Assembly (NCBI RefSeq): GCF_900460245.1
Contig: NZ_UHIP01000001.1
Span: forward strand, 434,001-498,000
Direction of reading: 5' to 3'
Length of the DNA: 64,000 bases
Origin: Vibrio fluvialis
GTDB taxonomy: Bacteria > Pseudomonadota > Gammaproteobacteria > Enterobacterales > Vibrionaceae
Below, in pieces: positions 62,180-64,000 of the stretch. The position numbers and the translations under genes are program-made. The notes under the pieces were generated by a model, which did not search any database, was not told the DNA's origin, and was given only the letters and a program-made list of their open reading frames with translations. How positions within the stretch are numbered: the first letter of the stretch is position 1; each line of letters starts with the position of its first letter.

Positions 62180-63664
62180 TTAAGCGGTTTCGGTGACGCC
62201 CGAAGGTTTGTCTTCGTCAGCCAGTTCAGTTTCGCCTTTGCCTTTGGAAATTTTAATTACGTACAGGGTAATTGCCAGCGTTGCGACCACACCGATGATG
62301 GTGGAGATTTGCATTGGCATACCAAAGCCCAGAGAGCTGTTGTTCAGGATGAAGGCAATACATACCGTGGTCATGAACGCTGCCGGAATGGTGGTGATCC
62401 AGTGCAGTTTGTTGTGACGTAGCAGGTAAGCCGACGCAGTCCACAGCATCATTACGGCTGTTGTCTGGTTAGCAAAACCGAAGTAGCGCCAGATGATACC
62501 GAAGTCTACTTGGGTCAGGATGCCACCAATCACGAACAGAGGCATCGCCATCAGCAGACGGTTACGCAGTGTTTTCTGTTCCATGTTGAAGTATTCAGCC
62601 AGGATCAGACGGCTTGAACGGAACGCCGTGTCACCTGAAGTGATTGGCAGGATAACCACACCCAGGAACGCGATGATACCGCCAAATACGCCCAGCAGGC
62701 CAAACGATGCGCTGTAAACTACGTTACCAGGGCCGCCGTTTTTCACTGCTTCAGACAGAGAGTCCAGTGAGCCGAAGAATGACAGAGCAATCGCACACCA
62801 GATCAGAGCGATGATACCTTCACCGATCATTGCGCCGTAGAATACGAAGCGACCGTTCTTCTCATTCTCGATACAACGTGCCATCAGTGGTGACTGAGTG
62901 GCGTGGAAACCTGAGATAGCTCCACAAGCGATGGTGATGAACAGCGCAGGCCATAGTGGCATGTCGTTCGGGTTCATGTTTTGCAGCATGTCGCTGACTT
63001 CAAAACCGCCCAGAATCTGGTGCTCGCTTGACACTGCGATTGCAGTGATCAGGCCAACTGACATGAAAATCAGTAGCGCGCCGAACAGTGGGTAAAAACG
63101 ACCGATGATTTTATCCACTGGCACGATGGTAGCGATGATGTAGTAAGCAAAGATAATCACGACCATCGTCGACATGCTGACTGTCATGCTGGTTTGTTCG
63201 TTGATCAGGTTAGTGATCATGCCTGCAGGCGCCGAAACGAAAACCACACCAACCAGCAGCAGCAGAACAATGGCAAAAATGTTCATGAAGTGTTTTGCGC
63301 CATTGCCCAGGTAGCGGCCGGACAGAGAAGGAACAGAGGCGCCGCCGTTACGGATTGACAGCATGCCTGAGAAGTAGTCGTGTGTTGCGCCGGCAAAGAT
63401 ACAGCCAATCACGATCCACAGCATGGCGGCAGGTCCATACAGTGCACCCATGATCGGACCGAAAATAGGGCCGACACCAGCAATATTAAGTAGTTGAACA
63501 AGATAGACTTTTGGCGTAGACATAGGAACGTAGTCGACACCGTCGGTTTTCGTGTGGGCAGGGGTTTGGCGTTTCTCATTGATGCCAAATACTTTCTCCA
63601 CGAACGCGCCGTAGATGAAGTAACCGCCAATCAAGGCAGCGACACAGGTTAGAAACCACAACAT
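62180..63664 (-). CDS. CstA-family transporter, probable pyruvate uptake carrier (BtsU/BtsT-like)
   Basis: The 494-residue inner-membrane protein has many membrane segments and the CstA core words: GPIFGPIMGALYGPAAMLWI, GCIFAGATHDYFSGMLSIRN, GAISGFHATQSPLMARC and GDTAFRSSRLILAEY. It is shorter than E. coli CstA or BtsT (about 700-716), lacking their long C-terminal part. E. coli BtsT is a pyruvate/H+ symporter of this family, and vibrios have a BtsR-controlled pyruvate carrier. Five phased BtsR-like repeats lie upstream (63759-63848), which makes pyruvate the most likely substrate; peptide or other carboxylate uptake is not excluded. AAAGGAC precedes the ATG. Confidence 0.85.
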   Translation of the reverse strand: MLWFLTCVAALIGGYFIYGAFVEKVFGINEKRQTPAHTKTDGVDYVPMSTPKVYLVQLLNIAGVGPIFGPIMGALYGPAAMLWIVIGCIFAGATHDYFSGMLSIRNGGASVPSLSGRYLGNGAKHFMNIFAIVLLLLVGVVFVSAPAGMITNLINEQTSMTVSMSTMVVIIFAYYIIATIVPVDKIIGRFYPLFGALLIFMSVGLITAIAVSSEHQILGGFEVSDMLQNMNPNDMPLWPALFITIACGAISGFHATQSPLMARCIENEKNGRFVFYGAMIGEGIIALIWCAIALSFFGSLDSLSEAVKNGGPGNVVYSASFGLLGVFGGIIAFLGVVILPITSGDTAFRSSRLILAEYFNMEQKTLRNRLLMAMPLFVIGGILTQVDFGIIWRYFGFANQTTAVMMLWTASAYLLRHNKLHWITTIPAAFMTTVCIAFILNNSSLGFGMPMQISTIIGVVATLAITLYVIKISKGKGETELADEDKPSGVTETA

Positions 63665-63758
63665 AGCGTTTGTCCTTTGTTATTGAATTAGGTGTTAATG
63701 AATTAAGCTCAGACTGGATACTAAATTATCAATAAGCGAGCTTCATTGGGTTTCCGGG

Positions 63759-63848
63759 TCAGTGGTCGTATAGTGAATTAAGTGGTGTTTAACGCCGCTG
63801 AGTGGTTTTTAACGATTGGTTAGCGGTAAGTGACGCAGAGTCAGTGGT
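63759..63848 (-). promoter_or_regulatory. Five helically phased ACC(A/G)CT repeats upstream of the CstA-family gene
   Basis: Plus-strand 8-mers TCAGTGGT (63759), TAAGTGGT (63779), TGAGTGGT (63799), TTAGCGGT (63820) and TCAGTGGT (63841) recur at 20, 20, 21 and 21 bases, two helical turns each. On the gene's strand they read ACC(A/G)CTnA. The two central copies fully match the E. coli BtsR (YehT) site ACC(G/A)CT(C/T)A. They lie 95-184 bases upstream of the start codon, behind a weak -10 (TAGTAT on minus) with no good -35, as for an activated promoter. Confidence 0.75.
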
Positions 63849-63903
63849 TATTGCCTATTTTTAAGGGTGAACGATTCATCCGATGGCTAAGTAAAGGTAA
63901 ATA

Positions 63904-64000
63904 ATGAAAAAAATAATGATGATGTTGGTCGTGGTTGGGCTGATGGGCTGCGCGGCCAGTGACAGTGAACTGGCTAAACAGGGCGACTGGTATCAAATAG
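63904..64000 (+). CDS. Small lipoprotein, 3' part missing (possible DUF2799)
   Basis: The frame runs off the right edge after 32 codons. It begins MKKIMMMLVVVGLMGCAASD, a lipoprotein signal peptide with lipobox LMGC (Cys-16), followed by AKQGDWYQI. A GDWYxIG-like start to the mature part is seen in DUF2799 lipoproteins, but too little is present to be sure. It is divergent from the CstA-family gene, so the phased repeats at 63759-63848 could also affect it. Confidence 0.65.
   Translation, partial: MKKIMMMLVVVGLMGCAASDSELAKQGDWYQI

Follow-up and report, generated by a model that had tools for sequence, protein, structure and literature searches.

The window analysed here, a 64,000-nucleotide stretch of Vibrio fluvialis DNA, ends in two divergent genes, a cstA-family gene on the minus strand and a DUF2799 lipoprotein gene on the plus strand. 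The 239-base intergenic region between them carries an array of five repeats that, judged from sequence, are strongly supported as sites of the BtsR type. The features of the locus are the following.

62180..63664, minus strand: cstA-family gene, 494 aa (Pfam CstA, PF02554, 199 bits)
63718..63723, minus strand: predicted cstA -10, TAGTAT, with its first base 43 bases past that of site 1
63725-63730: alternative -10, GATAAT
63759..63766 (hexamer 63761-63766), minus strand: BtsR-type site 1, nearest the promoter, ACCACTGA, site 2 starting 20 bases away
63779..63786 (hexamer 63781-63786), minus strand: BtsR-type site 2, ACCACTTA, E. coli consensus matched in full, site 3 starting 20 bases away
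63799..63806 (hexamer 63801-63806), minus strand: BtsR-type site 3, ACCACTCA, E. coli consensus matched in full, site 4 starting 21 bases away
63820..63827 (hexamer 63822-63827), minus strand: BtsR-type site 4, ACCGCTAA, 21 bases from site 5
63841..63848 (hexamer 63843-63848), minus strand: BtsR-type site 5, most distal, ACCACTGA
63861..63868, minus strand: possible degenerate sixth rung, ACCCTTAA, weak but in register; left out of the count
63904..64000 (start), plus strand: divergent neighbour, DUF2799 lipoprotein gene, 113 aa, running past the window end

The motif ACCRCTNA was found in all five copies on the minus strand, which is the cstA strand, with start steps of 21, 21, 20 and 20 bases towards the gene. 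The original prediction had five hexamers here at steps of 20, 20, 21 and 21 bases, with two central copies carrying the full E. coli BtsR octamer; positions and steps were verified on the cstA strand, and ACC(G/A)CT(C/T)A (that is, ACCRCTYA) indeed fitted two of the five copies in full (sites 3 and 2). At E. coli btsT (yjiY), the BtsR sites are described as one direct repeat, with starts ~21 bases apart and 13 bases between the octamers. The steps in the window agree with this spacing and the number of copies does not, being five instead of exactly two; since K-12 btsT has three sites by the same score (see below), two copies are in any case doubtful as a defining feature of BtsR sites. The further claim that all repeats lie on one face of the helix held roughly, in that the five starts drift by ~70 degrees round the helix at 10.5 bases per turn (arithmetic). 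In the window as a whole the hexamer is over-represented (87 copies vs 54.5 expected), so its bare presence is weak evidence. When the intergenic region was shuffled 20,000 times, five hexamers at any spacing turned up once, and we can therefore conclude that the cluster is not due to chance.

Target gene and BtsSR pair

The window CstA protein was 97% identical to the CstA of Vibrio furnissii and 89% identical to V. harveyi cstA (L025), a locus in which btsS and btsR come directly after cstA. The NCBIfam model for the pyruvate/proton symporter CstA gave 91.8 bits with a cut-off of 1188, which says nothing either way. BtsSR and the motif have been reported for V. harveyi, with btsSR beside the target (PMC5552118, Table 1), and a passage of PMC10653868 names BtsU as the sole pyruvate transporter of V. 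campbellii. The window gene is of the same gene family as in this V. campbellii/harveyi BtsSR-BtsU system; it is probably a btsU-type pyruvate importer, and its promoter presumably responds to pyruvate. The two arrangements differ, since btsSR adjoins the target in V. harveyi, where L025 has about ten rungs, whereas in the window genome the pair lies on the other side of cstA, 5-6 kb away.

That pair was found by searching the DNA to the right of the window for a LytTR regulator with a BtsS-type sensor. The source genome (4.86 Mb, two contigs) has two LytTR matches in total. One of them is BtsR (238 aa, C1:503339-504055, minus strand), 5.3 kb right of the window, and btsS (up to 579 aa) adjoins it on the same strand. 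BtsS and BtsR were 56% and 54.5% identical to their E. coli counterparts, respectively, and Pfam domains above cut-off were 5TM-5TMR_LYT, GAF and His_kinase for BtsS and receiver and LytTR for BtsR. Alignment to the E. coli proteins showed that the pyruvate-binding residues R72, R99, C110 and S113 of BtsS are all kept (for their roles, see the relevant passage of PMC10653868), as are the phospho-acceptors H382 of BtsS and D54 of BtsR (for the role of D54, see that of PMC5936718). Together with the conservation of the repeats described below, this pair supports the assignment of BtsR-type sites to the region upstream of a CstA-family gene. The other LytTR match is a second response regulator (Pfam) on contig 2 (L005:5731-7543); by eye, it is adjoined by a histidine-kinase-like gene and has a carrier-like gene nearby.

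Arrays at Vibrionaceae cstA loci

We compared 81 Vibrionaceae cstA loci, namely the best 80 among the 255 stretches confirmed in a genome-contig scan plus the window's own genome, a selection in which close relatives dominate. Each region ended at the matched lipoprotein start or at 450 bases (23,064 intergenic bases in total), and a strong site was one with a motif score of at least 6, on a matrix derived from these same loci. The hexamer occurred 334 times on the gene strand and twice on the other strand (means of 100 shuffles, 19.2 and 2.5). Pairs 20 or 21 bases apart numbered 177 with 0.03 expected, and pair distances peaked at 20, 40, 60 and 80. With chain scoring in which imperfect rungs were tolerated, all 81 loci had between three and ten strong in-register sites, and the lowest locus score (31.4) exceeded the best of 2,430 simulated sequences (28.9). 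The numbers of loci with three to ten strong sites were 11, 7, 35, 6, 8, 6, 5 and 3, the ten-site loci being those of V. harveyi, V. owensii and V. jasicida. When only exact hexamers were counted, the numbers of loci with one to eight copies were 5, 7, 15, 24, 17, 5, 5 and 3. Repeats and period, for which conservation across Vibrio had been proposed as a check, are thus conserved with at least three strong sites at every locus. The idea that five copies are out of the ordinary did not survive the comparison: five is what Vibrionaceae loci have most often and is therefore ordinary for vibrios, E. coli seems to have three and not two, and what departs from the textbook is having an array at all.

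The spacing of these arrays was most regular next to the promoter. Each of the two promoter-nearest steps was 20 bases in all 77 loci in which both of its rungs were strong, and 21-base steps were restricted to positions farther out. Copy number tracked intergenic length (rho 0.71, 75 loci), so that the arrays perhaps simply fill space.

Head-to-tail copies with a single period could also be a neutral tandem repeat left by local duplication. Spacer likeness, which was 0.295 for adjacent spacers, 0.282 for non-adjacent spacers of the same array and 0.308 for random spacers from different loci, with 1 of 289 adjacent pairs at least 75% alike, makes the probability of this negligible: spacers within an array were no more alike than spacers between loci, which rules out recent tandem duplication and means that the register carries no trace of it.

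Divergence of motifs and spacers was compared in six hand-chosen clades that cover 35 of the 81 loci. Mean motif divergence was below mean spacer divergence in all six (motif/spacer 0.087/0.226 in harveyi, 0.085/0.192 in splendidus A, 0.052/0.096 in splendidus B, 0.090/0.244 in mediterranei, 0.083/0.456 in tubiashii and 0.164/0.500 in nigripulchritudo). For single rungs compared with their own spacers, motif divergence was the smaller value in 41 of 51, matched the spacer value in 3 and exceeded it in 7, the last being -160 in harveyi, -233 and -149 in splendidus A, -231, -190 and -108 in splendidus B, and -194 in mediterranei. These data bear on a reading in which only two or three proximal sites function and the distal copies amount to remnants or weak decoys. 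We regard this as unlikely, since motifs diverge less than spacers in every clade mean and in most single rungs, since a near-motif stands at 45 of the 47 skipped in-register positions (most commonly GCCACT, 18 of 47), and since the register holds over 180 bases in the longest arrays. It retains some weight from the seven rungs that diverge above their own spacer, from the published E. coli model of a pair, from the degraded copies 4 and 5 of V. furnissii (the nearest relative examined) and from the frequent shifts in copy number, whose size class changed at least 20 times on the cstA gene tree (a quick tree with 17 unsupported forks). The loci with just three strong sites (11 of 81) and those with one or two exact hexamers (12 of 81) likewise count against a role of distal rungs.

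The array had also been suggested to serve the divergent lipoprotein gene. In the 68 loci concerned, the distal strong rung was separated from the lipoprotein start by a median of 62 bases (range 21-148) and could therefore overlap the lipoprotein promoter. This role is nevertheless not borne out by the orientation of the sites, with 334 of the 336 hexamers towards cstA, nor by the fixed distance, which is to the cstA promoter. In addition, three rungs were still present in 6 of 6 Vibrionaceae loci in which no lipoprotein neighbour was detected, and none of 15 CstA-family loci outside Vibrionaceae had a lipoprotein match within ~1.5 kb on each side. Because arrays are kept when this neighbour is missing and nearly all hexamers face cstA, the lipoprotein gene is probably not a target, and an array acting mainly on it, or on both genes, is very unlikely.

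Within the cstA flank examined, btsR was found in 77 of 80 relatives' loci and in the window's own genome. The pair lay directly behind cstA on the same strand in 34 of 78 loci and several kb upstream in 44, and its position relative to cstA changed at least 7 times on the gene tree (e.g. L025, L033 and L064 vs the window's own genome). Median array length was 6.5 in the 34 loci with btsSR directly behind cstA and 5.0 in the other 44, a link that we do not claim because it comes from just two independent pairs on supported branches. The recurrent presence of btsR near cstA, and the fact that the motif is the BtsR motif and recurs at E. coli-type btsT genes, make it extremely unlikely that another regulator acts on the repeats, for example the LytTR protein of contig 2. 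What speaks for such a regulator is the presence of that second protein in the genome and, according to a passage of PMC6193735, the likeness of LytTR site layouts.

btsT-type genes outside Vibrionaceae

The exact triple was found in 99 of 197 Vibrionaceae genomes and the reversed-pattern control in 44 (hand count), so that raw triple counts are not clean and loci were examined individually. Of 30 exact-triple loci examined, 28 lay upstream of cstA, and the two exceptions (L110, L116) were short tandem repeats. Among 295 genomes of the order, the octamer triple occurred in 35 and the reversed control in 4; 25 of the 30 loci examined, and 15 of the 20 outside Vibrionaceae, lay upstream of a CstA-family gene, and the five exceptions were short tandem repeats (L126, L140, L142, L145 and, in part, L144). 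Two of the loci examined (L134, L135) had a three-rung array before a BtsT-like protein ~42% identical to E. coli BtsT, and this gene is perhaps a further BtsR target. Across the window's own genome, the pair search gave 9 hits, of which 4 came from the array, and its reversed-pattern control gave 48, so that a lone pair is uninformative. As extra targets, the five lone pairs were rejected: four lie within open frames of at least 100 codons and the fifth, by eye, overlaps the 3' end of a penicillin-binding-protein-like frame.

From each of two further locus listings (32 and 39 places), 30 loci were taken. Three strong sites were present at 9 of 10 btsT orthologues (87-97% identity; L166 has two), at one of two more distant BtsT-like loci (L186) and, in other families, at 19 of 28 genes of the window type (58.6-82.2% identity). 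They were absent from both loci at 45-47% identity and from all 18 presumed CstA-type genes (L167-L184; 51-62% identical to BtsT and called cstA-type from this identity). By these predictions, three sites are common outside Vibrionaceae and many vibrios carry more. In K-12 btsT (L086), the three strong sites were ACCACTCA, ACCGCTTA and GCCGCTCA, the third lying 20 bases above the published pair, and a weak fourth (GTCACTTA) was in register 20 bases above that; the chain score of this promoter exceeded every score from 2,000 simulated versions of its own region. The BtsR oligonucleotide given in a section of PMC4847170 contains the third site. For the site map of the model E. coli btsT promoter, a correction is therefore suggested.

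The window array and E. coli btsT share the motif ACC(G/A)CT(C/T)A, the 20-21 base step, the orientation, a CstA-family target and control by BtsSR, and differ in that the published pair contrasts with five rungs in the window and up to ten in relatives. They also differ upstream: a perfect palindrome of the CRP type (TGTGATATGAATCACA) lies at -228 of E. coli btsT, and a passage of PMC7567609 describes control of yjiY by CRP. CRP in place of BtsR was rejected for the window, whose intergenic region has no CRP-like palindrome with two mismatches or fewer. Among the 81 loci, 14 had such palindromes (16 hits, largely grouped at the same position; ~10 expected by a rough hand estimate).

Promoter geometry and chain assembly

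The best -10-like hexamer, usually TANTAT, started at +43 from the proximal-site start in 62 of the 81 loci. A conserved CTATtCG precedes the proximal site across loci and is represented in the window by a CTATACG linker before site 1. From the usual spacings, the proximal octamer would span roughly -55 to -48, with a -35 region of poor consensus ~12 bases downstream of it; in LytTR systems of another class, site pairs favour 10 bases upstream of -35, according to a passage of PMC6193735. A simple sigma-70 scan called no promoter in front of the window gene, which would fit an activator-dependent promoter and is no demonstration of one. Between array and -10, overlapping the -35 position, there is also a conserved block aAGCGaATG (AACCCAATG in the window, 63744-63752), 14-22 bases after the proximal-rung start.

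Altogether, sequence comparison largely explains the locus as a BtsR-type promoter of a btsU-type importer, and it is in the ladder of sites that it departs from the known kind. We consider it highly probable that this is a BtsSR-activated, pyruvate-responsive ladder in which the extra rungs lower the threshold. BtsS would sense external pyruvate and activate BtsR, whose LytTR domains would fill the repeats cooperatively, one protomer per rung and from the promoter outwards; the proximal rung, just upstream of the poor -35, would help to recruit RNA polymerase, and the CstA-family importer would be switched on. The extra rungs may bend the DNA stepwise, and we propose that they stabilise the proximal ones, so that less activated BtsR would be needed. 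BtsR binding at each rung, cooperativity, DNA bending, pyruvate induction and the threshold role of extra copies are steps that we infer for this promoter. In an illustrative nearest-neighbour model of the rungs with cooperativity factors of 10-200, going from two to five rungs cut the half-activation level ~1.7- to 5-fold, and steepness gained little past three rungs. The cooperative switch put forward in the original prediction is thus possible, with the qualification that, in this simple model, the effect of rungs after roughly the third is a lower threshold and not a steeper response.

The usual model of a LytTR regulator has one dimer bound at two sites. Conserved ladders with three to ten rungs, odd-numbered in 59 of the 81 loci (related species not being independent), fit strict dimer pairs poorly and would allow chain assembly to be tested clearly and cheaply. 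Since two helical turns take 21 bases and the step is 20, a long array would drift round the helix unless its DNA is slightly overwound or bent; the drift would reach ~310 degrees in some relatives, where ten copies follow one another at steps of exactly 20 bases (arithmetic). A bolder reading, which we hold tentatively and rate below an even chance, is that LytTR proteins form head-to-tail chains and not only pairs. On rungs 20 bases apart, three to ten BtsR protomers would then make up a promoter-nucleated filament, with phased bends wrapping up to ~200 bases; the pyruvate threshold would be tuned species by species through array length, and what is called a "pair" in E. coli would be a short three-rung array. 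The Vibrionaceae loci in any case provide a natural promoter series with varied copy number for studying the evolution of the pyruvate response threshold.

Elements of such a scheme are known from other regulators. Passages of PMC4847170 describe YpdB, the sister regulator, as a monomer in solution that binds its two sites sequentially and cooperatively, and report that AgrA bends DNA. The YpdB (PyrR) "AB-BA" pair at yhjX resembles the window in being LytTR direct repeats, but consists of two sites with another motif. At a Bordetella promoter, six BvgA~P dimers spaced 22 bases apart reach the -35 (PMC7250471, in part); these are head-to-head dimers on weak sites, whereas the window has LytTR direct repeats with near-consensus sites. 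None of the titles and abstract openings found in literature searches on BtsR, LytTR and arrays describes more than two BtsR sites, and an earlier description may exist in the fuller texts. In the yhjX oligonucleotide shown in PMC4847170, GTCATTCATT, ~21 bases upstream of YpdB site A, resembles site A by eye, and YpdB may have a third site there.
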